Assembly (NCBI RefSeq): GCF_964204645.1
Contig: NC_134035.1
Span: forward strand, 12,009,951-12,073,950
Length of the DNA: 64,000 bases
Direction of reading: 5' to 3'
Origin: Tubulanus polymorphus
Lineage: Eukaryota; Nemertea; Palaeonemertea; Tubulaniformes; Tubulanidae
Shown: positions 18,401 through 47,285 of the stretch, in pieces
How positions within the stretch are numbered: the stretch's first letter is position 1
How the letters are laid out: every line of letters starts with the position of its first letter
Notes under the pieces: model-generated
What the model saw: only the letters and a program-made list of their open reading frames with translations
What the model was told of the DNA's origin: nothing
Databases searched by the model: none
Position numbers and translations under genes: made by a program

Positions 18401-21400
18401 TCTCCCCTCCCTCAGATACTACTGTTACCTGTTTAATTATTATTATATAACATTAATTAAGCACGCTACACCACGTCTTGCACACGGGTGATTGGAAACA
18501 GTCACGCAACGTTCATCATCGTTGAATGCCTTTTATTGCAGAAAACATGGTTCATATTATATTTTGAGTTTTGTTTTTGATCTTAAAATAGGGATTGTCC
18601 CCATTATTAATTTATTTGGCTGGTAAATTTTGTTTGATTTTTCGATTGAGTGTCCCTTACAGACCCACCACACCTGCCGGGAGCGAAACAGGGGGTTGTT
18701 TTTACAGCAATAGCGAAGCCAGCAGGGGCTGCAGTCACTCAAATGTTGGTTAACCAGGGAATAGATGACGTAGTGACAATTAAACATTGTTACTATCCAC
18801 CGGATATAACCAACTTTTGAGCAACTGACCCCAGATTCTTACTTAACGCATCGTAACGAGTACTAGAGGCCTTCGTAAAGTAATATCACCAATTTGAAGC
18901 CTCCTCTGTCATAAAAGCAAGTTCAAGTCTGAGAAGTGGCTCAGTTTTTAACTCGCTCCCATCTGCACTTTATTAATGGTCCGATAATTTCATTCTTACA
19001 TCAGAATTAAGGACTGAGTGGCGATAAGTTTCGCTTGAGCAAAAGTCTGTAGCTATTTGTCACATTTGTGGAATTTATTTGAACAATGTGTTTAATTTGT
19101 AAGACTACCGAAGTAGCGAACAGCAAACTGTTACAACCTCGATTCAAGTGGTTTTTGTTGTCGTATTCTGATTTATGCCGATCATTGATTTTACGAATCA
19201 CTTCTCAACAAATATAGAATGAACGAATAGTAAATAAACTGTGATTTAATTCCCTCTAATGGTGGTTAGTAGTTTATATAGCACAGTAGAAGTAGTAGTT
19301 TTATGGCGTCCACAATTCTATAATTAGCTTTGATTAATGTCAGATATAAACTAATTTGGGTGGAGACTCACTAATCACTAATGATCCCTGATTTATTAAC
19401 TAAAGCCTTTATAGCAGTGACTGCTAAAAGAGTAAAACCGATTCCTTGTTCACTTATTTGAAGGTCATTGAGAACGAATGTTTAAAACAAGTAGTATCAG
19501 ACCAAAAACATTGATACTTGTACATTTGTTATTGGACGTACAACATTTAGACTGGGCCTTAGTCGGTACCAGTTAGAAAAACCTTCTACAAGGGCAGATC
19601 CAGAGGCAAATTATGAAGCATTTGTCGCATCCGAAAGGGGCACTTTGATATGCCATAAGGCACTATTAGGTGTACCATACTGAGGGGCTAATTTTGAAGA
19701 ACTTGTCACATCTAAGGGCAATTGAAATGTACTAGTTATCTTCGTCGACAAAATATAATGGGCCAAATTTTTATGGACTCTTACAAGTCTCATAAGTGCC
19801 CCTGGATCCACCTCTATTCTATCCTTGATTCTCGTCCAATATTCACGAGATACTAGCTGTCCCAAAGCTACCGAATAAGGCGCAGAGTTTACGACTCATT
19901 TAGACCAGTCTCCCAGCTCCATTCAATGCTGTATTTTTTAACGTCTGTTTTCAGGAAGCGACGAGTTGTTGAACGGCGAGGCTGATATTGTTAGTGAATC
20001 AACGGAGGTTGTGGAATCAGTGGCGCCACCTGAACGCGAACCTACACCCCCTCCACCGGCTTATGAACACGTCAACAATGAAGTCACTGAATCTGTTGTA
20101 GTCGCGACCACTGTTACTAAAAAGGTAATTGAAGACATTCACTCAGAACACGATTGATAAAACACTATATCCGTGTTGACGGGGCGATGTAGAGAGAATC
20201 CCACAATTATAACGAAAAAGTCCGAAAATGTTACTTCGAGATAGTAGTTTATTTCAACGTTTCGACTATTTCATTATTCCTGAAGATGACTATTAGGATA
20301 TAGTTGAAACGTTGAATTAACTGCGCTAGCTCAAGGAATACAGTATTCCTGAAGATGACTATTAGGATATAGTCGAAACGTTGAAATAAACTACACTAGC
20401 TCAAGGAATACAGTATTCCTGAAGATGACTATTAGTAAATAGTCGAAACGTTGAAATAAACTACACTAGCTCAAGGGATACAGTATTCCTGAAGATGACT
20501 ATTAGGATATAGTCGAAACGTTGAATGAACTGCACTAGCTCAAGGAATACAGTATTCCTGAAGATGACTATTAGTAAATAGTCGAAACGTTGAATAAACT
20601 ACACTAGCTCAAGGAATACAGTATTCCTGAAGATGACTATTAGGATATAGTCGAAACGTTGAAATAAACTACACTAGCTGAAGGAATACAGTATTCCTGA
20701 AGATGACTATTAGGATATAGTCGAAACGTTGAAATAAACTACACTAGCTCAAGGGATACAGTATTCCTGAAGATGACTATTAGGATATAGTCGAAACGTT
20801 GAATGAACTGCACTAGCTCAAGGAATACAGTATTCCTGAAGATGACTATTAGTAAATAGTCGAAACGTTGAAATAAACTACACTAGCTCAAGGAATACAG
20901 TATTCCTGAAGATGACTATTAGTAAATAGTCGAAACGTTGAAATAAACTACACTAGCTCAAGGGATACAGTATTCCTGAAGATGACTATTAGGATATAGT
21001 CGAAACGTTGAAATAAACTACTATCTCAAAGTTACATTTTCGGACTTTTTCGTTATAATTGTGGGATTCTTTCTACATTCACTCAGAACATCAGTTAATT
21101 AACGTTAAGACAGGTCTACTGCTGTGTGGGTTTATTAGAATCATGAGCTTTCACTACTGGGTGCATATTAGGTTTGTCACGTGAACAAGGGCTGGTATTT
21201 CTAATTCAATCTAGTTCTCCTCCTAGTGGTATTCACATTTACTGGTTAACATGGTCCTCTACCAACTCATCCAGTGACGAGTTAGATATTTGTAGAACTG
21301 GTGAAAGTGAAAAAACTTATTCTGTTGTTGGTAAAGACACAATATTCAATTCATTATTATACGAATCCTTCATACAAAAGATTGTAAGCTGGTTTTATTG

Positions 21401-22932
21401 GCTGAGTATTACACTATTAAAGTTAATCATAATCTTGGTTAATCCTTTTAAACGATAAGTGCGGCTCGTTTTGTTGTCAGGTTATTGACAACCATCAGTT
21501 CAACAATAATCGCTAAATAAGACTTATGTCTGAATTAGTTGTTTACATTCCCTGTCGACTAAGTTTCAGTTCAGCCATCATTGCCACTATGAAATATCTC
21601 ATAGTTCCGGTTCCGCTATCATTGCCACTATGAGATATCTCATAGTTCCGGTTCAGCCATCATTGCAACTATGAAATATCTCATAGTTCCGGTTCCGCTA
21701 TCATTGCCACTATGAGATATCTCATAGTTCCGGTTCAGCCATCATTGCCACTATGAAATATCTCATAGTTCGGGTTCCGCTATCATTGCCACTATGAGAT
21801 ATCTCATAGTTTCAGTTCAGCCATCATTGCCACTATGAAATATCTCATAGTTCCGGTTCCGCTATCATTGCCACTATGAGATATCTCATAGTTCCGGTTC
21901 AGCCATCATTGCAACTATGAAATATCTCATAGTTCCGGTTCCGCTATCATTGCCACTATGAGATATCTCATAGTTCCGGTTCAGCCATCATTGCCACTAT
22001 GAAATATCTCATAGTTCGGGTTCCGCTATCATTGCCACTATGAGATATCTCATAGTTTCAGTTCAGCCATCATTGCCAGTATGAGATATCTCATAGTTTC
22101 AGTTCAGCCATCATTGCCACTATGAAATGTCTCATAGTTCCGGTTCCGCTATCATTGCCACTATGAGATATCTCATAGTTTCAGTTCAGCCATCATTGCC
22201 ACTATGAGATATCTCATATTTTCAGTTCTGCCATCATTGCTACTATGAGATATCTCATAGTTTCAGTTCAGCCATCATTGCCACTATGAGATATCTCATA
22301 GTTTCAGTTCTGCCATCATTGCTACTATGAGATATCTCATAGTTTCAGTTCTGCCATCATTGCTACTATGAGATATCTCACCTTAGAGACATCTCATAGT
22401 TCCGGTTCTGCTATCATTGCAAGAGATATGCTTTCAAAGTTCATTGCCAAATTCATTAAGTTATCTTGTAGCTGATCATTCTTAATCACCTTTTGATATT
22501 TGCACTCTAGTGACCTGAATGGTACAGTTTCTGATTGGCTGGCAATGAAAACAAACTCCGCTTCATTCTCAATGCTCATCGGTCAATTTTGGCTGACTTT
22601 TTGATAGCTGTATAGCCGTACTTGTCGATGATTAATTTCAATGATTCGGTAATTTGCAGGACGAGGAAGAGCCACGAGTGCCGACTCCCGAACCAGAAAC
22701 CAAACAACCGGAATCGACCGTCATCGTTCAAACTACGACCACGACCGTCGTCGAGTCAACGCCGCCATCTATTGTCAATAACGAAAACCAAGCGAAAACC
22801 AACGGCAACGTGGACATGTTGAGCATGAGCGCCAAGGAATATCAGGAATATTTGAGGGCGCACCGCAAAGGCGACGCTCGGCACCGAGCGGCGAATTTCA
22901 AAGAGAAAAAAGATATGTTCGATCATTTGTAA
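12474..22932 (+). CDS. NHERF-like single-PDZ scaffold with ERM-binding-type C-terminus
   Basis: Exons 12474-12764, 13756-14143, 16988-17335, 19955-20124 and 22660-22932 join in phase to 489 residues. Residues about 113-196 form a PDZ domain with the carboxylate-binding loop GYGF, GQFIGKVDDESPA and GDRIVEVN, closest in style to NHERF/EBP50 PDZ domains (also LHAEK and ETHSQVV). The other exons are acidic and Thr/Val-rich. The C-terminus NFKEKKDMFDHL resembles the NHERF ezrin-binding helix (KK-x-L-F-x-x-L), and its last residues could also be a PDZ ligand. Such proteins link membrane transporters to cortical actin through ERM proteins. Vertebrate NHERF1/2 have two PDZ domains; only one is seen here. 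Stopping at the first in-frame stop after exon 1 (12818) or starting at Met 13765 would give alternative products. Confidence 0.8.
13756..14143 (+). CDS. PDZ-domain exon of the NHERF-like gene
   Basis: Acceptor TTACAG at 13750-13755; donor CCAG|GTAAGA at 14144. It contains a complete PDZ fold: RQCTLRKW (first strand), GYGFNLH (binding loop), the strand GQFIGKV, the helix region SPAFYAGL, GDRIVEVN, helix 2 ETHSQVVDRVRKC and the final strand SMLVVDV. The His in helix 2 (ETHSQVV) marks a class I ligand preference in the NHERF family. The exon leaves phase 1, matching every downstream alternative found. Confidence 0.88.
14144..15908. other. PDZ gene intron; decayed repeats, no exon recognised
   Basis: It holds decayed fragments of the AGTCTTAAGTTGTTAGATT element family (about 14500-14580 and 15120-15230). 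Open frames at 14655-14996 and 14917-15159 overlap in different frames and show no family motifs. Confidence 0.5.
15909..16096 (+). CDS. Candidate alternative last exon of the PDZ gene ending in -NMYDF
   Basis: The acceptor is CGTTTTAG|GC, and two bases complete the Gly codon left by the PDZ exon. It runs in frame for 62 codons (PTPPNIESSMAKC at the start) to a TAA at 16094-16096. The terminal residues Met-Tyr-Asp-Phe are a hydrophobic PDZ-ligand-like tail. Use of this exon would give a short isoform (about 289 residues) without the ERM-binding tail. No canonical AATAAA is visible just downstream, which lowers confidence. Confidence 0.5.
16988..17335 (+). CDS. PDZ gene exon 3: acidic, Thr/Val-repeat exon
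   Basis: Acceptor TCTTTAG, donor GGACG|GTAGAG; phase 1 in and 1 out, 348 nt. It encodes internal near-repeats (ADNIVADNIVA; TTTVTTVITTTTVVEEV) and many Glu/Asp. The long minus-strand open frames across this exon are shadows of its repetitive codons. If the donor is missed, translation ends four codons later, at 17349. Confidence 0.72.
17403..17465 (+). CDS. Candidate 63-nt cassette exon of the PDZ gene
   Basis: Acceptor TTTTTAACAG, donor TGTG|GTAAGG; phase 1 in and 1 out with no stop, so it can be included between exons 3 and 4. It adds 21 residues beginning TPAQERNPVSETS and ending with two Cys (C-S-Y-C). Supported only by splice-site and frame consistency. Confidence 0.45.
18279..18365 (+). 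CDS. Candidate 87-nt acidic cassette exon of the PDZ gene
   Basis: Acceptor TATATTTAACAG, donor ACTG|GTATAT; phase 1 in and 1 out, no stop. It encodes 29 residues, strongly acidic (VVVDDDDESPVKPEYDDGED), matching the composition of the neighbouring exons. Inferred from sequence only. Confidence 0.5.
19955..20124 (+). CDS. PDZ gene exon 4
   Basis: Acceptor TGTTTTCAG, donor AAAAAG|GTAATT. It enters in phase 1 and leaves in phase 0. It encodes a Pro-rich stretch (PPEREPTPPPPAYEHV, containing a PPxY-type PPAY motif that could bind WW domains) and another ESVVVATTVTKK module. Reading through the donor gives ten more codons to a stop at 20155-20157, just where a foldback element is inserted. Confidence 0.72.
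20151..21074. mobile_element. Foldback element with internal 11-copy tandem amplification
   Basis: The outer arms are inverted repeats (left about 20190-20275: AATCCCACAATTATAACG...TTTCAACGTTTCGAC; right about 20990-21070, its complement). Between them lie 11 direct repeats of 69-70 bp starting at 20276, 20345, 20415, 20485, 20554, 20623, 20693, 20763, 20832, 20902 and 20972. The element is flanked by a 16-bp direct repeat ACATTCACTCAGAACA (20135-20150 and 21075-21090), which I read as a target-site duplication. The left end carries an extra unpaired stretch with ATATCCGTGTTGACG; the right end lacks its partner. It sits in the last intron of the PDZ gene. Confidence 0.85.
21172..21458 (+). 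CDS. Candidate alternative last exon with C-terminal membrane anchor
   Basis: The open frame is entered through an AG at 21170-21171, giving two bases (GT) that complete a phase-1 Gly codon. The exon therefore fits any of the phase-1 donors upstream. It encodes about 95 residues: a Ser-rich region, DELDICRTGESEK, then a hydrophobic helix (WFYWLSITLLKLIIILV) followed by NPFKR and the stop. That is the layout of a tail-anchored protein. The polypyrimidine tract is poor and I do not recognise the sequence, so this may be an unrelated or chance frame. Confidence 0.35.
21568..22420. repeat. Palindromic 41-bp satellite with higher-order period of 246 bp
   Basis: About twenty copies of a 40-41 bp unit, each containing the near-perfect palindrome CTATGAGATATCTCATAG and CATCATTGCCA. 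Two alternating variants (GTTCAGCC and GTTCCGCT starts) form dimers. Diagnostic variants recur 246 bp apart (GCAACTATG at 21665 and 21911; TTCGGG at about 21769 and 22015), so six-unit blocks were duplicated. Located in the last intron of the PDZ gene. Confidence 0.88.
22660..22932 (+). CDS. PDZ gene last exon, ERM-binding-type C-terminus
   Basis: Acceptor AATTTGCAG, stop TAA at 22930-22932, phase 0 in. It encodes Pro/Glu- and Thr/Val-rich sequence (VIVQTTTTTVVES), then a basic amphipathic region (SAKEYQEYLRAHRKGDARHR) and the terminal KKDMFDHL. An AATAAA at 23080-23085 lies about 150 bp past the stop and is the likely poly(A) signal. Confidence 0.8.
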   Translation, partial: DEEEPRVPTPEPETKQPESTVIVQTTTTTVVESTPPSIVNNENQAKTNGNVDMLSMSAKEYQEYLRAHRKGDARHRAANFKEKKDMFDHL

Positions 22933-23079
22933 AACGCACATCGCAGCGCCCTCTTGAGGCGCAGTAATGAATTACGATCGAGCGATGTATCGCGCCGGTC
23001 CCAGTTCCACGGATCGTTTTTCAAATAAGTCGTTTTGGGAGTGGGGGATGAGTAAATAACTGAAATTCAACCAATTTCG

Positions 23080-23085
23080 AATAAA
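23080..23085 (+). terminator. Probable poly(A) signal of the PDZ gene
   Basis: AATAAA about 150 bp downstream of the stop at 22932. TG-rich sequence follows only some 85 bp further on (about 23170-23220). Confidence 0.5.
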
Positions 23086-23397
23086 ATAGAACTGAATACA
23101 TCGAGAACTGTGGAACTGGAACCTGTTATTTTCTATCAGTCATTGATTATTATTATTACCGGTATTGAGGGCTGTTGTATATTTTTATAAACTGTGGAGT
23201 CATGTGTACTGTGTCTACTGCAGCTGCATCGCTGTCAAATCAAAATATCGATATCAAATGAATGAAGCCAGATCCGCAGTTCGTAGTCGTATTGAAATTT
23301 GACTGAATTTGATTTCTTAGAAACATGATTTCTTCAATAGTTATTTAATGATACGGTCGAACGAAACTCAATGTGTGGTTTAAGAACTGGCTTCTTT

Positions 23398-23526
23398 GGC
23401 TGGTTCCATATAGGCATGCCTTAGACTTAAGACCAGTCTAAGACCATCTTAGTTCTTAAACGCAAATGTAACAACTTAAGATCAGTCTTAAGATTCACTA
23501 CAAGTCTCAACTATGGAACTGGCCCC
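23398..23526. mobile_element. GGGGCCAGTTGCA-family MITE copy
   Basis: It begins CTGGTTCCATA...GCCTTAGACTTAAGACCAGTCTAAGACC, has CAACTTAAGATCAGTCTTAAG in the middle and ends TATGGAACTGGCCCC, so its ends are inverted relative to each other. Diverged from the 3.9-4.6 kb array but plainly related. Confidence 0.65.
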
Positions 23527-25492
23527 TGATGCAAAAATCCAACCCGAAAATTAATAATTCTTCTTATCAAAATTTCGTCATCAAAATTGAACTACTTACA
23601 AAACAGTTACTGTTATATTTGAAACCATTATACGTTAAACATTATATTTTATGTACAGATTGTCAAAATTATCATATATAACATATATACTTATACTTAT
23701 ATATGTCTTTATCAGTATATCTATAAATCATGCGATAAACAGCAAAATGTCGGCAACTTCAAACATTCCTAACACACCCTCTCCCTCTCTCTCTTTTTTC
23801 AAGTATTACTTCTGTTTTTATTGAGAGGAGCATTGGTTTGAATTTCGATATGACGCGCGTCCCATTAGCGAGAAATTTCTCAACTCCGTCCAAAACAACT
23901 GTCACTTTCATTTATAAAAAAAAATCCTGTGCCAAGGATCCATTTACGCAGTTTACTTATGGGAATCTTTCTGTTATGAAATAAGAAAATTTGATATTGA
24001 TACTTCCACTCCGACCACCCCCTAAAACCTGTTGTGGAGAACACTGCACTATGACAAGCATTACAGGGGTATAGAATATATATATATCTTTAATGTGGTT
24101 TTGTAATTAACAAGTTCAATTTAGCAGTTGTGTGCGTGAATGTATTCCATTTCCTGCTCCTGTACACTTGTTAATATCGGGTAATTTTCCAGATTTTTTA
24201 TCTATGGGGCGTTTTGTATAAGTACATAAGAACCACAAGTGCTAGCGATGGCTGTCATAGGCAGTCGTACCCCATTACGGCGATATCCGGGCTCTTGAGA
24301 ATATTTCAAGAAAAAATGTTCAGGTACCAAATTACGATACGTCATTGACGATATTCTAAACGACTTGCTAGTTAAATTGATTGAGCGCGCAAACTGGGGC
24401 TTGTCTGGTTTCATGGAGGTTTTGGACTGATAGAAATAGAACCATTGAAACTGAATACATTCCAGACACCTAAAACACTCTGATGAACTAAATAAATTAG
24501 TAAAATCATGTGTATATATATATAAAATTGTATTATTTGAAATATTGTGTCGAAATGGTACAAACACTGATTCCAACAACAACAAAAGAGTGTTTGTTAT
24601 ATTGTTAATCATTGTTTAACCGATTATGCGTATGTTTGTATATGAACTACTGTTCTTTTTATTTCAATAACTGTTCAATTTATTGCGATATTGATTGTTG
24701 GAATAACACTGGGTAAAGGGCTGTTACTTATCATTGTGGACGTATGTTGATTTTTTGTTTTGAGATTTTTGTTACGCCGGATTCAGTTCTACAGTTGTGA
24801 GTTTCTGCATTGAAATTAGTTTGTTTTCGGAGCCAAATTTCAACTGGCAACTGTGGAAGTGAGTTGTGTATATTTTCCATGATGTCGTCGTACAATCAGT
24901 TTATACGATATATGTAGATAAACTTCAGCACGGGTTTCGCTATATCGCAGTTTCAGGGTCCGATCTAAGCACTTGTCCGATTGCCTGGGACAAGTATATT
25001 CTCATCAGCGCAAGTAGGTTATCATTATCACTTGTCCACCGAGCTAGTGCAATTTTATGTCACAAAGCTATTTTTCCCACTCTATACAACGGATGATAGT
25101 GCCACCAATTGGACTGCCTGTGTAGGGCAAGTAGCTTTTTGAGGGGGCAATCAAAATTTCAGATATGCTTGCCCCGGGGCAAGTGGCTTTCATTCCTTAG
25201 ATCACACCCTGAGTTTGTAGATATTGGACTCTGGATTTCGACATGTATACCGTTTAATGAAAACGTGCTTCAGCTCTTGTTACTAATGAAATATTTGTTA
25301 TGAACTCGAGGTTTATTGAAGTAGTTTATTGATTCAGATTCGATGCAATTAGTCGTGATTGGATTCAGAATGATTGAGCAGTGATTTAGAATATGATTTT
25401 TTTCTTTGATCGATTGAAGTATTTTTTATGTGTCACTCAATTCAATTATTCATGTAATATACGAGGTCTATCCATTATGCTGATAATCTCTT

Positions 25493-25740
25493 GTTGGCTG
25501 TGGCCTCTAGATTTCTACTGGTGATTCACCAAGAATCTGTTGTGATGATTGTGGCCTCTAAATTCTAATATATAGGAGATTCACCATAAATCTGTCTCGA
25601 TGGCTGTGGCCTCTAGATTCCCTCGGGAGATTTACCGAGAATCTGTTGTGTTTGTTGTGGCCTCTGGATTCCCACAGGAGATTCACCAAGAATCCATTGC
25701 AATGGCTGTGGTCTCAAGGTTACCAACAGGAGGTCCACTA
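25493..25740. repeat. Degenerate tandem repeat, about 52-57 bp unit, five copies
   Basis: GTGGCCTCTAGATTCC-like starts recur at about 25498, 25549, 25605, 25658 and 25708, each followed by GGAGATTCACCAAGAATCTG. Copies are diverged, suggesting an old array. Confidence 0.7.
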
Positions 25741-28352: not shown

Positions 28353-28457
28353 TCCAGTTCCACAGTTGCGAGTTAAGATTTGACTCTGGAGTTCAAACAT
28401 TGAAAATGAACTGATTCTAACTCTGAGTTAACTCTAACTCATTACTGTGGAACTGGA
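28353..28457. mobile_element. Short inverted-repeat element, TCCAGTTCCACAGT ends
   Basis: The terminal 14-bp inverted repeats TCCAGTTCCACAGT and ACTGTGGAACTGGA are perfect. The interior contains GAGTTAACTCTAACTC-like inverted stretches. About 105 bp, non-coding. A relative lies at 46896-47006. Confidence 0.75.
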
Positions 28458-28606
28458 TCCAAGTATTTTAAATTACTATTTAATCAGCTCAATATGTTTA
28501 AATGTTAATTATTATAATTGTAAAGCGCGCCGATCACAATCTGTAGGAGTGCACTGTATAAGGAAAATAGATTATCATTATTACCCGGTAACGTTATATT
28601 ACTGTA

Positions 28607-31600
28607 TCACGTTGGGCGACATTCTAAATCTAAAACTAAATGATCAACATGTGGAGCGTATGATTTCACATGCTCTATGTGTAAAACGTTTGTGTTCCAT
28701 TCGGTTTTATGTAGCGATTCTAACATATGTTTAATCACAGATGCTGTTCGTAACGCCCACTGAGTCCATATTCGAGAAACCTCTGATTTCTTATCGTCGG
28801 ATTTAGATATTTTTTGTTCGGTATCTAATTCAGAATCGTGGTTAGAAGGTTTAGACGCGACGTTCTGATGAACGTGAAGAATTCCTCCGGATTTTCTTTT
28901 TAACAAGCGACAAGCGACCGGCCAACCATCTTCCGAACTCGGTATCAATCCTAGATTAACGCGATCGGCTATATCGATCAAATCGATCTGTAAAATTCAT
29001 CAGAAAACGATCAGAACCATTTGGAAATGGAGAATTCAATTTTCGGTATGTCCACTTTCCATCCATTTACACAAATCCCATGAGTTTTCCCTGATTTTTC
29101 CATGTTATAACACAAAATTCTCTGAGTCAATCAGAGATATTCCTAGGTTTAAAATGTTACGATTCATTCATTTTTCATTAGATGTATTGATCAAGAACAC
29201 ATAGTCAATAGCATCATCCAAATAATAAATAGTTTTCTAGGTTTTTGGCAAAATTAGTGAAATTCCTAGAATTCCCCCCTGACCTTTCTGATTGCCCGAG
29301 TTTTGCAGGTCAATGGCCACCCTGATTTTCAGGGGGAAGAGCTTACCGTTCGGTTGTCGCCTTCGTGAATCTGACAACGATTCGCGACTTTATTCAAAGT
29401 CAGATTTCTCTTCAGGGCAGCGACAGCATCGGGATTCCATTCACAAGCGTGAACGAAACTAGCACCGGCGTGAACTAGATAGGGCAACGTGAAATAACCA
29501 ATACCTGCAAAATAAAAGTTAAATGATGTTCAAATGCTATTCGACGTTGTATCAATATCTACTTCGCTGACAGTTTGCTCTAAAATACAATCATATCATT
29601 CATTCCTGTCCTCCTTTCACTTTCCATTTCATTTGTCTAATTATCAAAATTCTTTTTTATTGTTCCTCTGTGGGGTGTATAGTTTTCTCATTGGGTACAC
29701 CGCCGATAATCACGATAGGTAGAACACAATATCCGTGTTGACGCGATGAGGAGAGTATTCCACAATGATAATAAAAAGTCCGAAAATGAAACTTTGAGAT
29801 AGTAGTTTATTTCAACGTTTCGACTATATCCTAATAGTCATCTTCAGGAATAAGAATTCATTATTCCTGAAGATGACTATTAGGATATAGTCGAAACGTT
29901 GAAATAAACTACTATCTCGAAGTTTCATTTTCGGACTTTTTATTATCATTGTGGGATACTCTCCTCACCGCCGATAATGGCTTTCCATAATCCCTGTCAT
30001 CAAAAATACATCAAGAGGACTCTTTATGTATTTTTGCTGTCATGTATGTATGTAATAGGGCCTATAAATTATCTATGGATATAACGAAAACTTGTATGTC
30101 ACTTGTATATCACTTATTAGTACCAAATTAAATAATGGCTTTTCTCCGCATAATTCCCTTCTTTCTAAGTATATTACTTCATGCCTTGCCAAACACTAAT
30201 TATTTACTCACTCACCAATTTACTCAATTAACCTGTCCTCCTCTGTATATATACCCCTGTTTTAAGTCTATTTCTCACACCTGACGATGATCTCTAGGGT
30301 GAGATCGAAACGTCGTGTCTTTTAAATATTTTAGATTTAATAAATAAATTCTGGTTTTTAAATTCTTTTAATCTGTAAATAGTGGGATTTTATCTTATTA
30401 TCCGTTCACCACGTTAGAGTGTGGTCATCGTTCTATCGAAAACTTGTATGATTTTCGAATAAATGACAAAATTCATTCTTATCATTATTATTATTATCAT
30501 ATACACAGATTCAAAGATTTGATCCTTTCAAAATTGAAATCACTTAGACGTCAGTGTTTCAGTCATTCTAATGGGACAGTAGTAAGAAGCTACACAAATC
30601 ACATTTCTTTATGTAATATTTGTATTCAGTAATAGAAATAAAGTGGACAATTTTCTCGGCTTAGATCTATGGTTGTTTTGTTAGGTTTATTGAGGAGAGA
30701 ATCCCACAATGATAATAAAATGTCCGAAAAAGAAACTTCGAGATAGTAGTTTATTTCAACGTTTCGACTATATCCTAATAGTCATCTTCAGGAATAATGA
30801 GATACTACTGAAGATGACTATTAGGATATAGTCGAAACATTGAAATAAACTACTATCTCGAAGTTTCTTTTTCGGACTTTTTATTATCATTGTGGGATTC
30901 TCTCCTCATCGCGTCAACACGGATATAGTGTTCTACCAATCGTGGTTAGGTTTATTGTATTACTGTCGGGACAACTACTAGTTTATTGTTAATGCCGACA
31001 ACAACTACCGGTAACTGTTACAACTTCGCTATAAATCAATGGAAATATTTTTACCGGCGTAAAGATCGACGACAGTTTCTCCGGAACACGGGAAAGACGA
31101 GACTCTTAGTTTCTCAGTGATATTCCCTGAACTAAACATACACTTTGTCACATCATAACAGTACCTGAATCAAGAGAAAACAAAGCATTTTCAGCTCGAA
31201 TCATCGGGTTTCAATTCAATGAGTTTTTACGTTGATAGAAATTTTTTAGAGATCATGACGTCAGATATGACGATTCATCGATGATCACAAACTTTTATTT
31301 TTATTTTTATTTTTATTTTTAATTTTCACAAATTTTTATCCCAAATAGGACGATTTTCATAATTTCATACTTGACGAACTATCGGTTAGGCTAAAAGAAT
31401 TTGATACCTCGTTTCCGATTACTGGTGAGCTTAAAACTTGACCCACCTATCTACCCTGTACACCGATTTCTTTAAAATCATGATCAAACTTACAATAACA
31501 GACCCGGCAGTGATAGAAATGGACTGATTACAAATCTTATTGCAGTTAACAAAATGACCCGGCCGATTAGGGAGAAACAAGGCATCATTTTCATTCTAGC

Positions 31601-34885: not shown

Positions 34886-35399
34886 TTTACCACTGTTTCT
34901 GATGTTCTAAGTACTACATCTATTCTTATACGAGGGGAAACATTTAAAAAATCTGAAAATCAAAACACTATGGGCAACGACCTTCAGTTCGCGGTGAAAG
35001 AAATGGATATGAGTGCTACGAAAGAGACTATAGGGTGCCGACTGTAGCGTCTAAAACTGTAACTTTAACAGTGCTTATTCCGAAACGGCGAAAGTTGGTT
35101 AATTAAAAGGGTTATCGGTTTTGATGTAGATATTATGTCAAAAAGCTCTCTTGAGGCTTAATTCAACGAAAATTGAGTAGATTTGTACTTTTAGATTTGA
35201 GATTTTGAGTTAACGCTTAATACCCTAACCGAGTGCGGATTGCCATTTTTGTAATTACGAATGAACATAGGCCTATTTTCATGCTTTTTCTACCATTTCT
35301 ATTCTATATCTGTGTTCGTGATTCTTTTCTGTGAGATATACTTGAAATTTTGAAATTATCATCAGTGGGTTTGTGGCGGTAAATAGTTCAGACACGCGC

Positions 35400-38300: not shown

Positions 38301-41300
38301 AATGAATTCCGATTTGGACGGTGTGTTTTAAAAACTTCTAGGGTAACGGTAAATGATACAGTGTTTGTAGTTTGATTTCTTGGGTCGCAATTAAAGGTTT
38401 AATATTCACAGCCTTGCACAATGGCATTGATCAATGTTTTTGTTCTGTGTATTATTATTGACCCCTCTGGGCCCGAGCTCGAGATGTAGCCATGGCTCCA
38501 GAAATTGCATTCTCCCTCGGCCGGGGTTCGAGACGCCGGTCACGGCGCAAAACTGCGTCTGATTTACCTAAGTGTGCAGGTACATGCGCAGTTCGGATGA
38601 TGTCATTATTAACCAATCAGAAATGGAATTCTGGGCAATTATGCAACGAGCAGTTTGATTGGCGCCACCTGTGCATATATCTGCGCTCGAGGGAAAATCA
38701 GGTAGGGGTGTGTGCCGTGTCTGTGTCTCGCGATATCATCAGTATTGGAATCCCTGTCGAGGGCGGGTGCGATAATTGCAGTGTGAAGTCGACAATTGAT
38801 GATTGAAAATTGTATTTCTGAAGAATTTCTTTTTCCTCTTTGAAACAGTAGCGGCAGCAAGTGTTTACAGTTAGCACACAGATTAGAGTTCGAATCAAAC
38901 TAAACCTCTATTTATTTGATTTTCTCAATGTTTTATATAGGTGTCGAAAAAACCTGTGATCCGTCAAATAAACAAAAAAAAATGTGGCAAATATTTCGAT
39001 TGCATGATTTCGATGTTTCGAATCGATATTTCATCGTTATATTTCGTCGGATATTTTTCAGCTCGGGACGATCGAGACGATCTAGGTCGCGTGAAGGAGG
39101 AAGCAGGAGAAGTGGCGGAAGAAGGAGCTATTCACGAAGCCGTAGCAGAAGTTATAGCAGGTATGAATATTGTCGACTAACGGGGAACGGGTCAACAGTA
39201 GTGCAAAAATGGTCTAAAGTCTTAGAACTCATCGGATTGGCTGTAGAACAAACTGGGTTTTACATATTAGAAAAATTGAGAAATTGAGGAATTCTGGTTT
39301 TAATTTTGCCAGCAGGGGATTCTGTTCTGACTCCTTTTGAAAAATCAGGAAATTCTATCGTTATTTTGGTATCTTGTTGTTCTTGCTTTGTTATGGCTGG
39401 CATAAACGCAAATAGATTAAGAGAAACGGCCTCCACTGAGAAATCTTATGAAATAAGATTGAATTAAGGTGGTGAATATTTGTGAAGGATCGGGGAATTG
39501 AGTACCACTGAAAGATGGTCTCAAATCTAAGATGTGTAACTTTGTGCCCTGAGATGAAGGTATTGCAAAAATTGCCTTAATTGAAATCATATATTTTGTT
39601 CTTAAATTTACAGATCACCGAAAAGATCGAAGAGAAGCAGATCAGGAAGGTAAATATTGATTATTTCTCATGAACGAGGCGTAAATGTCTTTTTTGGCGA
39701 GTTTGAGTTGAGTTGTATTTCTTGATTTCTCTTCATTTCAGTCCCGCGAACGGAACTAAAGATTAGGTACTACATTTAGATAACGATGATAGTATCAGTG
39801 CTTCGTGCTTCATGTATTTATTTCATACTCGTTTGCTTTCGATATAGACTTGAGTTAAAACCATTTTAGTGTTTGGTGTTCATTCCCACGCAGCCCCTAG
39901 AAATAGGGATTATACTTCTGCACCATTGAACTCCTAAAATAGTATTGCATGTGTCCCACTTGCATTTAGTTCTTGTTCTTTAGTCATTTTGAAACTATAT
40001 CGACCAACCACCAAATTTTTTTTCACCAGTGTTGAGGTTTCATCTAGACTGTGAAAACGGTCTCTAACGTTAACAACTGAGTTGCTGTAAAACAAGTTTA
40101 GTTTTTCTCTTATTGCCCCAAATCCTAATTTCGTATGTTTGGCAATATACAGAAAGTGATGTGCCCCTTCATTAACCGAATACACAGCTTTAGATTGTAT
40201 TGTTTGATCGTCAAATAATTCAGAACTGTGTAACTGCGTCCAATTAGACGGGTTTCGATTGAATATATACCGGGTTACAAACTCTACTGGTTGTTTCTAT
40301 CAGGTTTACAAGTTATCCTATTTCGGTAGGGTGTACCCTCGTCGAAACAAATGCGCGGCCAGACTAATCGAAACCTGCCTTAGTATTGTGAATTCCTGTT
40401 TTATATTCCAGTAGTACTTAAGTATTTAATTTCTGTTCTCCTCGTGTTCGAGATCATTCGTGAAGTGGAAGACAGTGTTGAAGCGTTTATGCAGTCAAAC
40501 TCAAAGTCGTCATCACATTCCTTAAGTCCTAATTTTTATGGACGCTCAATTTGTACTTCTAATTCGATTTACCAAGACAACAATGTAATAAGATACTTGA
40601 AACTAGGACGACTTCGGCGTGTTAACGCTTTCGTGAATGGTCCCGGTAGATCGTTGGGTAATCATTTTATCCTTTAATCAATTTTCTCGACGATCTTCTA
40701 TTTTTCAGCCAACATAGCCATCACAGCCATCACAATCACAGCCCAGCTCACAACGGAAACCATCAGAACTAAAAGAGGGTCGGGAGAGCTTCGAGAACTG
40801 TCGTAGACAACTGCATTCCTTCTCCCGGATAATCATCATTGACTCTCTTCATCCGTGTGTGTTCTCTTTCCATTTTATTTTACTACTGAAATATCCCCCC
40901 TCCCTCCCCCCCAAGTTATCCCATCATGAATAAAAAAAGTAATCGTGTACATTTTTATACCCGGTAAAAAGAGTTGCTATCGAAAAGGTTTGTTAACGAA
41001 AATAATGCCGTTTTCGATCAAAATGTATTCCAGACCTCTTGTGGATAGTAAATGATTTTGAACAGTTCGTAAAACAAGCTGAAACAATAAGAAACTGAAT
41101 TTCATTTTATCTTGTATTATCGAATGTTTGTTTGTGTATATTATTAGTAGAATTCATCATTGTTTAATTGTGTAAAAGACATGTACATTAACTACGACTA
41201 CTGAAACTGCATTTCATCCTGCTTCAACGGCGAGTCAAACCCGGTTAGTCTTTAGTTTTTTTGATCATCCACTCTTTCATTCCTTCTGATTATAGCTGTT

Positions 41301-41770
41301 TAGTTTTGCAGGGTCCCTACGACTCCTTGATTCCTCAAACAAACTCACTCAAAACGAAAATGCTTTTCGTTGTGCTTGAAACTCCTTATAAAGTTTGAAA
41401 CCTTCAATTTTGAGATACCTGCCATTTAGAAATCAACCCAATTATGCACTTCCTTATTTTAGAAACTAAGTTAAGTTAGTGTAAATGATTGAAAATTGTT
41501 TTTAAACCACCCGTCCGAAAATTACCAGTGAACCAAGATGAACAGTACCGATTTAATAGGAGTCTACAGTAAATGAAAATTCCTTATTAATCAAGAATGA
41601 CTGATGTGTAGGGACTCTGATTTTGGTTTAATGATAGTTACGATCTATTTTATCATATCAAACGCCGGGTTTCTCGTTGTCGTCGTTGATTTTAAACTTC
41701 ATCGTTGTCATTCGCACTCGCTCGCTGTATGTCTTATTATTTGTACCATTATTTTGAGTGTCCAATAAAA
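35400..41770 (+). CDS. SR splicing factor of the SRSF3/SRSF7 type (whole locus)
   Basis: Coding exons 35975-36255, 36705-36878, 39062-39160, 39614-39649 and then either 39742-39766 or 40709-40772, giving 204 or 217 residues. A non-coding first exon probably ends near 35449 (GACAG|GTCAGT). Domains: a Gly-rich N-terminus, an RRM with RNP2 KVYVGDL and RNP1 GFAFVEF, a CCHC zinc knuckle [14 protein letters not shown], then Arg/Ser repeats. The RRM plus knuckle arrangement is that of SRSF7 (9G8) and Drosophila Rbp1/x16 relatives. These nuclear proteins bind exonic enhancers, recruit U1 and U2AF, and help mRNA export. The gene is divergent from TYW2, with about 0.5 kb between starts. AATAAA at 41764-41769 is a likely poly(A) signal for the long 3' UTR. 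Confidence 0.88.
35975..36255 (+). CDS. SR factor exon with start codon, Gly run and RRM
   Basis: The acceptor GTTTGTTTCAG precedes a short 5' UTR and ATG at 35975. An 11-Gly run precedes an Arg/Asp-rich [10 protein letters not shown] stretch, then the RRM ([43 protein letters not shown]). It leaves in phase 2 at GTGAGT; exon 36705-36878 completes the RRM (RIRVEHS) and holds the zinc knuckle. Confidence 0.9.
36285..36669. mobile_element. Decayed copy of the GGGTCCCTACGACTCC element family
   Basis: It begins GGAGTCCTTTCGACTC and ends CTCCTGGAATGACTGATC. The interior matches AACTCCTTCATTTTTGAGAAATAG and AAACTTCTG segments shared with 41310-41617 and 59752-60145. Intronic in the SR gene. Confidence 0.55.
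36705..36878 (+). CDS. SR factor exon with RRM end and CCHC knuckle
   Basis: Acceptor TATTTGCAG, donor CGACA|GTAAGA, phase 2 in and out. It encodes the last RRM strand, a basic linker ([16 protein letters not shown]) and the knuckle C-x2-C-x4-H-x4-C, which gives SRSF7 its RNA preference. The minus-strand frame at 36637-36888 is a shadow. Confidence 0.9.
37852..38210 (+). CDS. Candidate truncating alternative terminal exon of the SR gene
   Basis: It has a strong acceptor (TCTTCTCTCCTCATCC...ACATACAG) and a GC-richer body. Entered from the phase-2 donor at 36878 it reads 38 codons and stops at 37967-37969. AATAAA at 38186-38191 is followed directly by GTGCGTGTGTGTG, a textbook cleavage context. 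Use of this exon would remove the RS tail. SR genes commonly autoregulate through truncating exons in this same intron. Transcript evidence is not available here. Confidence 0.55.
38465..38790. mobile_element. Diverged foldback/SINE-like element in SR intron
   Basis: It shares GATGATGTCATTATTAACCAATCAG and CAACGAGCAGTTTGATTGG with the element at 48300-48660. Both carry inverted flanks related to GGTTCGAACCCCTGCC. The plus-strand frame 38492-38806 is not a gene. Confidence 0.55.
39062..39160 (+). CDS. SR factor RS-domain exon 1
   Basis: Acceptor TATTTTTCAG, donor AGCAG|GTATGA, 99 nt, phase 2 in and out. It encodes alternating Arg/Ser with [16 protein letters not shown] and [12 protein letters not shown], the phosphorylated protein-interaction tail. 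The long frames at 38916-39287 and 38941-39180 run through it in intronic context. Confidence 0.85.
39614..39766 (+). CDS. SR factor small RS exon and stop exon, isoform A
   Basis: The 36-nt exon 39614-39649 ([11 protein letters not shown]) is joined to 39742-39766, which ends PANGTKD and TAG. Directly after the stop, TTAG|GTACTA could serve as a donor, so this exon may be spliced on to 40709 as untranslated sequence. Confidence 0.7.
40709..40772 (+). CDS. SR factor alternative His-rich last exon, isoform B
   Basis: Acceptor TATTTTTCAG. Entered in phase 2 from 39649 it encodes [16 protein letters not shown] and ends HQN then TAA. It would replace the isoform A tail by a 20-residue His/Ser-rich tail. 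If joined instead after 39766 it is 3' UTR. Confidence 0.55.
41310..41617. mobile_element. GGGTCCCTACGACTCC element copy in SR 3' region
   Basis: Ends GGGTCCCTACGACTCCTTGATTCC and CAAGAATGACTGATGTGTAGGGAC are inverted relative to each other. Interior AAACTCCTTATAAAG and GTACCGATTTAATAGGAGTCTACAG match the 59752-60145 copy. Confidence 0.65.
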
Positions 41771-42742
41771 ACGGATTTTATAAAATATTCAAACTGCGCT
41801 ATTTAAGTGATTTCATCTGATGTTTGGGTATGATATTCATTGTAGCAAGTGCTGAAAAGTGCTCACTTTTAATAAAGCCCTGCTACATTTACAGCCATAA
41901 TGTTGCAGCAGTGGAAGACTGACCCCGACCAATGGAATTCTGATGTACCCTGATGATTAACCCCAGTAGAGACTACTTGTTTCCATGGCCCCTCCATTCT
42001 GGATCCACACTCGCATCATTATTCTTGTTGAAGGTCCATTCACTGAATTGGCCACCTATAGTCTCGCACAACAAGTTTATACTCTAGACTGGTTTGAATC
42101 CGATTCTGCAGTGCTCTAGGATAAATTTGGTTCAACAGTCCGTTAGGATAAATTTTTTTCAACGGTCCATCGATTGAAACTGACTCCAAGCAGTTGATGC
42201 TGAACTAGAAGATATATGGTAATCATGTGGCGTCAATAGATCGAATCCGGTCATTAATACTGATTTAGAGTAGAGCTGAATGGTCGATGATGAGACTGTA
42301 CTGGCGACACAATCATTCATGAGTCTGGGAAACTTGAGACTTGATTGCGTCATCGACTCAGATTCTGATAAGAGATGCAGGGATCGCGCAGAACGGAATA
42401 AGATTGGTTGGATGGGGGAGTCTATATGATTAGGCCCACAGGTATTTAAGAACTATGTTCGATTCCCTTTTCCTTCGAAATAATTTAACATTCGATATTT
42501 GTTCTCATTCGGGATCGGGTTGATTGTTGTTGGGAAATTTCCAATTATATGCCATGACGCCATCTATTGGAATTTCGCTGAACTGACCAGATTGCTCTCA
42601 CTGACTACTGCTCTTAGTCAATGTGTTGAGATAACACTCGCCACCTAATGGAAATAATCGATATTGCAGAGTCAGTTCAGCATAATTCCAATAGATGGCG
42701 ATCAAAGCATACCGGTAGGCCAAATCGATGGTATCGTATTAA

Positions 42743-43024
42743 CCCTTTCCGTGCTGACTAATTAATACCCTATAGTGCTGGAGATAATTTGAAAATTCTG
42801 AAAAATTCCACCCTAGTGTGTTGAATAACGGGAATAGCACTATAGTGCGTCTACACCGCGGCGCGGTGTATCGTTAGTTACTAATATTTCACTATGTTTG
42901 ACAGGTGTTGCCACCTTTCAAGAGAGATAATTAGTAATTACTAATTAAATCAATACACCGCAGTGCGGTGTACTAGCAAAATCCATCACTGATTCGTACA
43001 CCGCACTGCGGTGTAGACGCACTG
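42743..43024 (-). mobile_element. piggyBac-type MITE, right end lost
   Basis: It starts TTAA|CCCTTTCCGTGC and matches, in reverse orientation, the intact copy at 61302-61580, including the palindromes TACACCGCACTGCGGTGTA. It stops matching just inside the other terminus (GCACTGA), so the end and its TTAA are missing. Confidence 0.75.
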
Positions 43025-45059
43025 ATGTCTCAAGCATTAAGAGGGCTCTAGCAGCTATCCTCAGTTTCCTCTACTCCTCATCTTCGACTCCAAATCCAGA
43101 CTGATTCTCTGATGCATGTGGGATATTAAAATTACGAAGTCCGACCAGACACTCAAAAACAAACAATCGTTTCTGTATTAAACATACATGTATTTTACTT
43201 TTATTTCTGAACCAGTATTCCTAAGACCGAAATGTAACACAGTACAAGCTTATGTAGATACATATAAGAATAAAGAAAGCACAAAGCTAAAATGTGAGTA
43301 AATATTTTCTCACACAATTATTGAATGATACACATAAATCAGTATTGTACTTAGAAACTTATTAGTACTGCCGGCAAAAATTGAAGAAACCTTTTCAACA
43401 ACAGAAAACAAAGTAAGAACCTTTATAATCCATAAAAGAATTCTATATTTCGTCTCATAGTCATAGAGTGGTTAGATCTAACCTCGGCAAGACCGGTTCC
43501 ATGGTTTAAACCAGAAAACTGTGGAACTGAAGCCTTCTCTTCTGTTCAATTATGGGGCTATAGATGTCAAGAGCGAAAAGGATATAAGAATAGACAAGAG
43601 AGAGCTCCGAGATGAATCCAATCTGTACAGGAATTCTCTTATCTTCTGTCATTAAGGGCAATTTACCCTTAGACAAAGGGAAAAGGAGGTAAGACTCGAC
43701 TTACACAGGTCCGAGTCTTAAAGAACATCACAAAACATTCATGTGTAATGCTCCAAGAAATCTTACTCATAATATGATTATGATCATTTTCTTAATACAT
43801 ACATGATCATGTAGTAGATACTTTTAATACACATTGCTTAAAACATTCAACTTATTTCATTTTCTCAATATAATGATACTTCGTAATCTTATTCCTAATA
43901 TATTGCATTGCGTTATATGTTTAAGCATTTAAGCATTATATGTTTAAGACGTAAAACATTTCACCAAGAATATAAGAGCTGCGTAATAGTCCATTTTGAT
44001 TACACTTTAAGAATTTTAGCTGTTACTTTTTGTCATTGGATTTTTATGACGCACAGTAGAGACCAGTCAACAACACTCTCAATATGTAGCCACATTATTC
44101 TAGTGTGTATATACAACCTTTTTCGTTGTTTAACATCATCAGCATTTTCACATTAATAGGGTCCCTACAGTCATTCCTGGGTACAAGGAGTTTTAAAGGA
44201 ACAACATTTCAAAGAAGCGTCTGCGTCACTTTCATTTCCCAATTACTGTAGACTTCCCTTAAATTGGTTGTGTTTATCTCAGTAAACCATTAATTCAGTG
44301 GTTTCATAAGGTGTTTAGGAATGAAGGAGTCGTAGGGACCCTGTCTATATACTGAGACCTTTTTGTTGTTCAACTTTATTGGTATTCTCACACTTTTAAA
44401 CGATGACGATAATCTATCGAAGAATAAGGCAATAAGATTATATTGTTTTTCTAAGAAATTGTCGGAGTTATATTCAAACCAGAAAGACGGGGGGAATTAG
44501 TTGCAAGCGGAACTCGCAAAGTTCTGGTCTAAATATGAACTCGCTCTAGTTGACTACTGTATAACATGAGTCAACATTGCTTCATTATTAAAATCATCAT
44601 TCATAATTCATCTTTATATTATCATACTTTAGATCTTTCTCATGATACAAGAAGGGAAAAAATACTCTATACTTTTAGGCCGGTTTCGATTGGTATCTAT
44701 TATACACTTCTCGCATAACACATCGGGACCGTACAAATTCGGCGACCAGTTTCACAAAAAGGTCTAACTCTTTTTAAATCGATTTAATTCTTTCATTAGT
44801 TCAGTCGATCTAGAATCGATTTAGGAGTGAAACATTTTTGTGATTCTGATCCCTGCCTGAAACTAGCTCACCACCTGTTGGCGAGAATTTACACATGATT
44901 TCAAGTAGAATTTAAGAAACGTCGATTTCAAAATTTAACCGCTTTGATTTGAGCTAGTCTCTCTGGTTCTGCGTGAAAAAGCTGCTAAGCGTACAATTTA
45001 GTGATTGAGATGTGGTCTTCACTCTTCTCATTCTTTCTCAATCGTTCAGATTTGCTGCA
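43025..45059. other. Interval downstream of the Tudor gene; probable 3' UTR and repeats
   Basis: Nothing coding recognised. It includes a short inverted-repeat element at 44159-44341. Part of it is probably 3' UTR of the minus-strand Tudor gene. The open frame 43908-44156 has no motifs. Confidence 0.45.
44159..44341. mobile_element. 183-bp MITE with GGGTCCCTAC inverted ends
   Basis: Terminal repeats GGGTCCCTACAGTCATTCCTGG and its near-complement GAATGAAGGAGTCGTAGGGACCC. Compact, no coding. Terminal sequence matches longer relatives at 41310 and 59752. Confidence 0.8.
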
Positions 45060-47285
45060 TTAAATGATTGATATCGGCAAAATATGTTCCTGAAATAGAT
45101 ATAAATTAATAATTCTACGGAGAAGATAAATCAAAGAAATTGACAAAGTAACTGTATGTTCATGTACATTAATTTGCAAATAAAGCCCCTGATCTGAACC
45201 TAGCTCCTAAACAACCCTCAGATCGTAAACTTAGCATCTACCCTACCCCCTAAACGCTGCATAATCCTTAACATTATCTCTACTCCTTCCCCTAATATCA
45301 AACATAATCTTTACTTCTAACAACTTGAGACCAGTCCTATGATTCTTAGTGGATTGGTCTTAGAATATCATCGTCATCTAAGATCACAATTTTTCATCTT
45401 TTGCCAGGACTGTGAAACTGGGCTGGAGTTCCAGTGGTGCTTGTCAATACGAAGCAGTGATATATAAATACTTACGAGATGATCTCTGCTCTCACCACGT
45501 TCATAGCGCACCGAGACATCGGTATTCTCTTCAATCAAACTACAACCCTCACCATCTACAAAACATAACAACCAACATCAACATCATTGTACATGTATCA
45601 ATAATGAGCGCACTCATCTAAACCTACAGCAGAACGGAGGGATATTTGTCTCCAAGTACAGTGAGTGGAATTTTCATCAGGAATTTGATTAAAAAGATTT
45701 AAGGTAAATTTTGTCACTTGAATACAGAGGCTAGTTTCACGCGCGTAGATTAAATACTAGTCTTAGCTCAGATTTACAGCCAATTGAACAACTTAACAAA
45801 TTCATGAATCCGAGTATAACTCTTGTACTTGCGGTTCTGCTAACATTGCTACTACGTTATACTTACTTGTGACGTAAAATGGCACTGCTGCCGGAGGTTG
45901 AATCCAGAATTGATCAGGAACCTCGTAGATTACGGACTGATCGATGATATCTTCATTACCATAATCGACGAAGAACACCAGAGATTTATCACCGATATGT
46001 TCCATGATATAAACTCTGAATAATACGACACACAGGTAAACATTAATATCGAATACAACTGGCTTACCTTGAGTGAGTATGCAGAATGGAACCACCCTTT
46101 TACATAGTATGCAACCTGGAACCACCCTTTTAGAGAGTATGCAGAATGGAACCACCCTTACCTCTTTCTGATGAACCACTGTTTGAGAGGGCACTGATGA
46201 AATGTAGAGAGAATCCCACAATGATAAGGAAAAAGTCCGAAAATGTAACTTTGAGTTTATTCAACGTTTCGACTATATCCCAATCATAATCTTCAGGAAT
46301 AATGAAGATAGTTACATTTTCGGACTCTTCCCTTATCATTGTGGGATTCTCTCTACATCGCGTCAACACGGATATAGTGATCTATCAATCGTGAACACTG
46401 ATGGAATGTCTTATGTATAGAGTTTGTAATTCATTTTCAATTAATTTTGTTCAGCACAAAGTCCAGAAGATATATGTAAAGTGTGCACACTCAGTTTTCG
46501 AGTGTGATAAAACATGTAATTCCTGGTTTGTGTGCTTTATTTTCAATCAAAAATACCTCGGTTGAAGTCCTGAGCGAATGAGAAGTGGGAAGCGTGCGAT
46601 CAGTTACATTATCAGGTTTGTTAATATAACTAGTCACATATTTGTTATTCAGATATTTGAACAGTTAATTCTGTATTTTCTACTCACCGATAAAAACAGC
46701 CCATATATTCAGCCATTCCTCTGAATGTTTGTAAATTCACCGGTTTACGATGAGGCAACTCATTCAATGATTTCACTAAAACTTCCAACTGACGAAGTTC
46801 CGGTTCCTGGAAATTAACGTCAATCCAATATTTACCACGACCGTATTCCAAATAAAAAATATTGACTGCACAGGTTGAAATTAACCCAAACATCAGGACC
46901 CAGTTTCACAGTTGTTAGTTAGAGTTAACTCTTGAGTTAAAATCCGTTCCTTTTCAATGAGTTAACTCTGAGTGAAATCTTAACTCATAACTGTGGAACT
47001 GGGTCCCGTTTGAATAAAGCGGTTCAGAGTATGAACACTCGCAACCTTTGAGGGGTTAAGCGAGGTTGATTTTATTGAAAAAACTTACGAACATCATCAT
47101 ATGAGCGAACATGAACTTCCTGTTAACAATGTGAGTAATCCTGATGTCTAATATCAGCGGTAGAGATGTTTTCAAGTACGAACCGATACCGATGAATTGT
47201 AACATCTCGTCGTGAATGCGTCTGTTCATACCGAGCGGTTTACTGCACATTCCGCTCGATAGAAACTCATCTTCATCTACATCTA

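Follow-up and report, generated by a model that had tools for sequence, protein, structure and literature searches.

Foldback repeats of Tubulanus polymorphus as probable products of two-sided target-primed reverse transcription by a Penelope-like element

In twin priming of LINE-1, both target strands prime on the RNA, which gives rise to an inverted segment and a target site duplication (TSD). For Penelope-like elements (PLEs), the closest biochemical description comes from the element Poseidon of Anolis carolinensis (PAc), whose protein cuts and extends both target strands in vitro with a preference for ATT (PMC11167929). Its reverse transcription starts internally, in an AC-rich stem-loop region of the RNA that has two adjacent start sites; the tail of the element is the stretch between them, both strands use both sites alike in vitro, and the hammerhead cleaves with the help of the protein (PMC11167929). 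Rotifer Penelope elements feature inverted pseudo-LTRs (pLTRs), a 31-bp tail and TSDs of 8 to 10 bp, and self-priming on an antisense template has been proposed for them (PMC3846280).

Here, we describe a family of foldback repeats that shares its ends with a PLE. In the window, i.e., the whole stretch of 64,000 nucleotides that was analyzed, all four predicted copies are real inverted repeats, and each is flanked by its own direct repeat, as the original prediction had it. The duplications had been put at 13 to 16 bp; they are indeed long and variable, but their range in the window is 12 to 16 bp (16, 13, 13 and 12 bp in copies 1 to 4), and that of copy 4 is imperfect, with one mismatch. The arms of copies 1 to 3 measure 91 to 111 nt and are 93 to 97% complementary, and those of copy 4 are 91% complementary over 56 nt. 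In agreement with the predicted asymmetry, all four copies carry an extra segment of 37 to 38 nt containing ATATCCGTGTTGACG at a single end, while the opposite end terminates at ...GGGATTCTCTC or a near variant. The features are as follows, the extra segment being listed as the PLE tail, as explained below.

Copy 1, element at 20151-21074, TSD ACATTCACTCAGAACA (16 bp)
20135..20150, no strand, left target duplication ACATTCACTCAGAACA
20151..20188, minus strand (3' to 5' on the plus strand), PLE tail, its start taken from comparison with the PLE end
20189..20278, minus strand, tail arm
20275..21021, plus strand, hammerhead-like motif in a 70-bp tandem array, within the no-tail arm
20971..21074, plus strand, no-tail arm, terminus ...GGGATTCTTTCT
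21075..21090, no strand, right target duplication
Copy 2, element at 29711-29965, TSD CACCGCCGATAAT (13 bp)
29698..29710, no strand, left target duplication CACCGCCGATAAT
29711..29747, minus strand, PLE tail
29748..29853, minus strand, tail arm, hammerhead-like motif at 29817-29847
29861..29965, plus strand, no-tail arm, hammerhead-like motif at 29867-29897
29966..29978, no strand, right target duplication
Copy 3, element at 30693-30944, TSD GTTAGGTTTATTG (13 bp)
30680..30692, no strand, left target duplication GTTAGGTTTATTG
30693..30796, minus strand, no-tail arm, hammerhead-like motif at 30761-30791
30803..30907, plus strand, tail arm, hammerhead-like motif at 30808-30838
30908..30944, plus strand, PLE tail with ACACGGATATAGTGT stem-loop core
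30945..30957, no strand, right target duplication
Copy 4, element at about 46205-46396, TSD ACTGATGRAATG (12 or 14 bp, one mismatch)
46193..46204, no strand, left target duplication ACTGATGAAATG
46205..46309, minus strand, no-tail arm, arm end approximate, hammerhead-like motif at 46266-46296
46310..46356, plus strand, short tail arm
46357..46396, plus strand, PLE tail, whose final bases may belong to the TSD
46397..46408, no strand, right target duplication ACTGATGGAATG, one mismatch

Copy 1 differs from one plain hairpin in that a 10.7-unit array of a 70-bp unit (20275-21021) lies within one of its arms. Given that the units of this array have a 17-nt filler in common and show higher-order periods of 209 and 278 bp, the array was probably expanded after insertion. 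Copy 1 is also located at the end of an open frame (19942-20157, ending in ...VTKKVIEDIHSEHD), such that the target duplication lies within the frame and the stop codon is supplied by the PLE tail (CGATTGA); should this frame be a coding one, the foldback would have taken the place of the protein's end. Elsewhere in the window, 42802-43025 and 61307-61530 form an inverted pair of 224 nt, 94% complementary and 18 kb apart, which contains the palindrome-like ACACCGCAGTGCGGTGTA and is probably another repeat family; one arm of the genomic copy L040 has an insertion of similar sequence. The window further holds two tandem arrays (3821-4645, 105-bp unit; 21562-22380, 41-bp unit) and an open frame with a PDZ domain at 13750-14232 (Pfam, 2e-12).

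The autonomous partner was found by reading tail-bearing copies without a nearby second arm. In one of them, L041, the interior codes in the reverse orientation for a GIY-YIG endonuclease and a Penelope-type reverse transcriptase (RT). A genome search for the tail 15-mer followed by anything but the arm had led to five places and to no autonomous element by that test, and two loci were rejected as partners: L067 (around L039) lacks a PLE ORF, and in L068 (around L064) the coding sequence is reduced to a degraded fragment. Compared with the genome, the RT piece gave more than 150 matches, dozens of which are 95 to 97% identical and have long open frames. Some of these matches lie in tandem, 2857 bp apart—a period also seen in L071—and the pLTR is repeated in L069. 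In L071, on C5, the open frame spans 833 aa, or 800 aa if counted from its first ATG, and domain searches of the 800-aa frame matched RVT_1 (5.7e-10) and GIY-YIG (1.5e-5). As the end of this PLE is 95.6 to 96.7% identical to copy 3 of the window across arm and extra segment, the latter is the PLE tail, which makes up the last 37 to 38 nt of the canonical copy L071 and adjoins its TSD. The element thus has the features of endonuclease-positive PLEs: a single ORF with RT and GIY-YIG, tandem units with pLTRs, an optional tail of 30 to 40 bp (here 37 to 38 nt) and a short variable TSD. An autonomous, possibly Penelope-like partner with the same termini had been anticipated, and this abundant PLE fills that place, albeit with reversed polarity, the “extra” segment being the 3' tail, where reverse transcription would start.

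Counting from the PLE tail end (position 0), the foldbacks and the PLE have the same termini, namely 0 and about -38. Full-length PLE insertions obey the same end rule as the foldbacks, with the tail at either end: L070 and L141/L142 begin 5' with an inverted pLTR that bears the tail and have their 3' end near -38, while L135/L136 shows the reverse arrangement (TSDs of 14, 13 and 12 bp for L070, L141/L142 and L135/L136). Single-sided PLE copies also use either end, L071 with the tail and L139/L140 without it.

To the 268-Mb source genome the foldback family contributes hundreds of copies. The first genome search returned 1201 candidate places, and the 40 copies scored were mostly 92 to 95% identical to copy 3; patterns combining tail and arm gave 117 and 528 strand matches (PLE ends included), compared with 0 for the reversed control. 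The copies sampled are a part of the total, taken mainly from the first contigs. Most foldbacks are 243 to 265 bp long and have neither an ORF nor coding capacity for RT or endonuclease; they are non-autonomous products. On contig G000:C6, outside the window, tail-bearing copies between 19.16 and 20.63 Mb lie almost all on the minus strand, whereas both strands are used elsewhere in the genome; this run may be a segmental or tandem amplification.

Nearly all of the best 30 copies have perfect TSDs of 10 to 15 bp, all different, and the TSD length ranges from 9 to 17 with a mean of 13.0 among the 72 foldbacks with a clear TSD. The genome-wide comparison of TSD lengths that had been proposed as a check therefore yields variable rather than fixed duplications; together with the single tail and the PLE termini, this departs from the fixed TSD, symmetric ends and DNA transposase that had been named as contrary evidence. 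To count tails independently of the tail itself, we used 59 loops from a pattern without reference to it, 41 of which had both ends classifiable. Exactly one tail was present in 40 of these 41 foldbacks and two tails in none, the single no-tail case (L090) being without a clear TSD; independent end choice on each strand would give this result with p about 2e-11 at best. In the mapped foldbacks, one arm starts at 0-3 and the other at -34 to -41, and both extend upstream until they meet. Just outside the TSD, reading outward, NTT occurs in 30 of 72 cases on the right (p=2e-11) and in 22 of 72 on the left (p=5e-6), with 7.8 expected, and ATT in 11 and 9 cases, respectively, with 2.5 expected. This similar bias on both sides suggests that both strands are cut before a similar sequence, about 13 nt apart.

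At their inner ends, too, the arms stop sharply. Relative to the PLE end, most stops lie at -139 to -145; of 110 arms, 107 do not extend beyond -145, the stops peaking at -143 and -145, and three run past, in a sample that requires the junction to be near the hammerhead-like motif, which sharpens the -145 cluster, older copies having scattered junctions. The two arms are joined through 0 to 26 nt of filler or an overlap of 1 to 2 nt, and L062 contains a short palindrome resembling a local snap-back. A TATA box, TATATATA, has its first base at -174, and the A of TCATT follows 31 nt downstream, at -143. This is the spacing expected for a Pol II start, from which a transcript start is predicted, and on the simplest reading of the sequence the stops would be explained by cDNA run-off at the 5' end of the PLE transcript. 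The transcript of a tandem PLE would then begin with the hammerhead-like motif, followed by the arm, the tail and the ORF. With both start sites inside its first 145 nt, foldbacks of mostly 243 to 265 bp would result.

The hammerhead-like motif consists of the constant parts CUGANGAU and CGAAACGUY together with stem II. Across four families, its stems I and II covary: 93% of the cells are paired, 8 of 11 stem pairs have changed on both sides, and the observed covariation score was reached by no shuffle. No hammerhead family was matched in Rfam searches of the window and of a PLE end with E limits of 1 and 10; the hairpins drew matches to miRNA families that stayed below the gathering scores and are probably due to the perfect hairpins. 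A strict motif pattern ending CATCGAAACGT had 3 matches only. Cleavage by this putative ribozyme is predicted at -102, with which the cDNA ends do not coincide, and hammerhead cleavage was rejected as their origin because they lie about 41 to 43 nt upstream of the predicted site. In the Anolis PLE, the start codon is found at the start of stem II of the hammerhead (PMC11167929), which is compatible with CTGANGATG here.

We used a related motif to mark other PLE families of the genome. Among the first 100 matches listed were 11 head-to-head pairs and 0 tail-to-tail pairs; 8 of the 11 fetched have clear TSDs of 11 to 17 bp across the element, and all 8 carry one tail, whose core resembles ACACGGATATTGTGT or ACACGGATTATAGTGT and folds into a small stem-loop. 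One PLE family at 69% RT identity shows the same order of motif, arm, tail and ORF. Judged by its motif, the stretch at 30281-30325 between copies 2 and 3 (CTGACGATGATCTCTAGGGTGAGATCGAAACGTCGTGTC, with the same layout of stems I and II) is a relic of another PLE family, and it served as the fourth family in the covariation count. Hammerhead-like motifs at 61819-61870 (CTGATGATGAGGTTT...CCCCGAAACTGTTAGAAAATAAAC, 5-bp stem I) and 5645-5691 (CTGATGATAGC...CTCGAAACTGTTTG) are possibly relics of further PLE families.

How could such inverted repeats arise? The original prediction saw in them a self-folding RNA that is retroposed. In the present context, this would be a hairpin RNA from the foldback loci, itself retroposed in a SINE-like manner by the PLE enzyme. 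The termini common to the foldbacks and the PLE are in line with this, and so are the rare variants shared by both arms of one element (10 versus 0.5 expected on re-pairing), which indicate that both arms derive from one RNA or one source locus. However, RNA copies would share their loops, whereas 70 of 73 loops (31 of 31 in a smaller sample) are distinct, so that foldbacks form anew and no master hairpin is copied; arm lengths also differ between copies, and either arm may be much longer. We therefore regard retroposition of a hairpin as very unlikely. A somewhat better case, although still an improbable one, can be made for a single cDNA or antisense RNA that folds back at its 3' end and serves as its own template, one arm then being a copy that stops 38 nt short. 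The head-to-head layout, the shared rare variants, the palindrome in L062 and the published self-priming proposal for rotifer Penelope elements (PMC3846280) would all agree with this. Yet the no-tail arm, which would be the copy, exceeds the tail arm by 78 nt (L046) or about 258 nt (L061). L070 and L141 have the whole ORF on their no-tail side and about 200 nt on their tail side. The tail arm is the longer one in L032, L034 and L044. With arms unequal in either direction, neither is in general a copy of the other, which for those copies speaks against folding back and for two separate cDNAs. Moreover, such copying offers no reason for the constant stop at -38—a known kind of start site in PLEs—and many loops contain filler from neither arm. 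Unequal arms, the constant -38 end and the sharp stop thus favor two-sided target-primed reverse transcription over self-priming. In the simplest account, two cDNAs are joined during insertion, and this creates the inverted repeat.

As in retrozymes, the hammerhead could also give rise to small circular RNAs whose reverse transcription would leave repeats with a hammerhead-like motif in each arm and, in copy 1, a 70-bp array of it. The covariation of stems I and II fits this reading, as does the structure of animal retrozymes, which are tandem repeats of the non-LTR type and have TSDs of more than 4 bp (PMC7229834). But the cDNAs end at -143/-145 and not at the predicted cleavage site at -102, the copies are arranged head-to-head and, copy 1 apart, not as direct multimers, and the same filler in the units of the array suggests expansion after insertion. 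With termini not set by hammerhead cleavage, we rejected this reading as highly improbable. Mobilization of a foldback or MITE by a DNA transposase, to which long inverted repeats and target duplications would equally point, has a negligible probability, being refuted by TSDs that vary from 9 to 17 and by termini that belong to a reverse-transcriptase element; the ends are also asymmetric by 37 to 38 nt and the loops individual. An ordinary LINE or SINE was rejected as well, since there is no poly(A) or simple-repeat 3' end, the ends being the PLE tail and the pLTR end, and the partner a PLE.

In short, the foldbacks share their termini and sequence with the pLTR end of the PLE and have TSDs of 9 to 17 bp, individual loops and sharp stops. 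We consider it likely that they are short PLE insertions made by two-sided target-primed reverse transcription, in which the ends of the two cDNAs are joined. Probably acting as a dimer, the PLE protein would cut both target strands about 13 nt apart before an ATT-like sequence, and each 3'-OH would prime reverse transcription within the 5' portion of the PLE mRNA: for one strand, synthesis would start on the far side (0), for the other on the near side (-38) of an AC-rich stem-loop. Both cDNAs would run off the 5' end of the transcript (about -143/-145) and be joined with short filler or microhomology, and filling of the staggered gap would create the TSD. Where the RNA reaches farther upstream and is copied on one side, a full-length PLE with an inverted pLTR would result. 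Of the original interpretation, target-primed reverse transcription in preference to cut-and-paste transposition is upheld by the variable TSD and the constant asymmetric ends, and the self-folding RNA that retroposes is not. As both strands of the Anolis element use both start sites alike in vitro (PMC11167929), one start site per strand needs an extra assumption, e.g., a dimer holding one RNA. It is tempting to go further, and we lean slightly toward the idea that PLE integration is intrinsically two-sided, an RT dimer sitting on one RNA stem-loop, its subunits starting on each side and on opposite strands, and the cDNAs being joined end to end.

This scheme differs from LINE-1 twin priming, where the second site is internal and variable, in that its second site has a constant position, the opposite tail end, and a single stretch serves as template for both strands. 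With Anolis PAc, the PLE described here would have in common the cutting and extension of two strands, the preference for ATT and two starts bounding the tail (PMC11167929); where PAc has a hammerhead in the pLTR region, the present element shows a hammerhead-like motif. The PAc data, in contrast, were obtained in vitro with purified protein, and the paper has no foldback insertions or one-start-per-strand pairing; the PAc start sites lie 111 to 118 bp inside the ORF (PMC11167929), and here they would lie just upstream of the first ATG. The endonuclease-positive Penelope of Adineta vaga likewise combines RT and GIY-YIG in one ORF and has direct and inverted pLTRs, an optional 31-bp tail at one inverted pLTR and short TSDs (PMC3846280). 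Different from that rotifer are the hundreds of minimal inverted copies without ORF, the one-tail rule over many of them, a TSD centered on 13, and an arm that ends at the predicted transcript start. Animal retrozymes resemble the foldbacks as small non-coding repeats with hammerhead motifs in PLE-rich animal genomes, but they are direct tandem repeats of about 150 to 450 bp that arise via circular RNA, whereas the foldbacks are inverted and end at the predicted transcript start (PMC7229834). In the open-access papers searched, we found no report of such foldbacks or of a one-tail rule.

By our analysis, the foldbacks would be what the Anolis in vitro reaction should leave behind, if each strand used one site and the cDNAs were joined. 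They link in vitro two-start, two-strand PLE activity to real insertions and make a specific mechanism testable. The genome provides a large natural data set for this purpose: each insertion has one tail and its own junction, the target preference is similar for the two strands, and the cDNA stops sharply. These data bear on how PLEs integrate and why they have inverted pLTRs and an optional tail, for which self-priming on an antisense template is the published proposal that we found. They also define a class of inverted repeats that annotation could mistake for MITEs. Should integration of PLEs be two-sided by nature, this would account for two features of the animal elements, the tail and the inverted pLTRs, and the foldbacks would amount to a genome-encoded 5' RACE of PLE transcripts.
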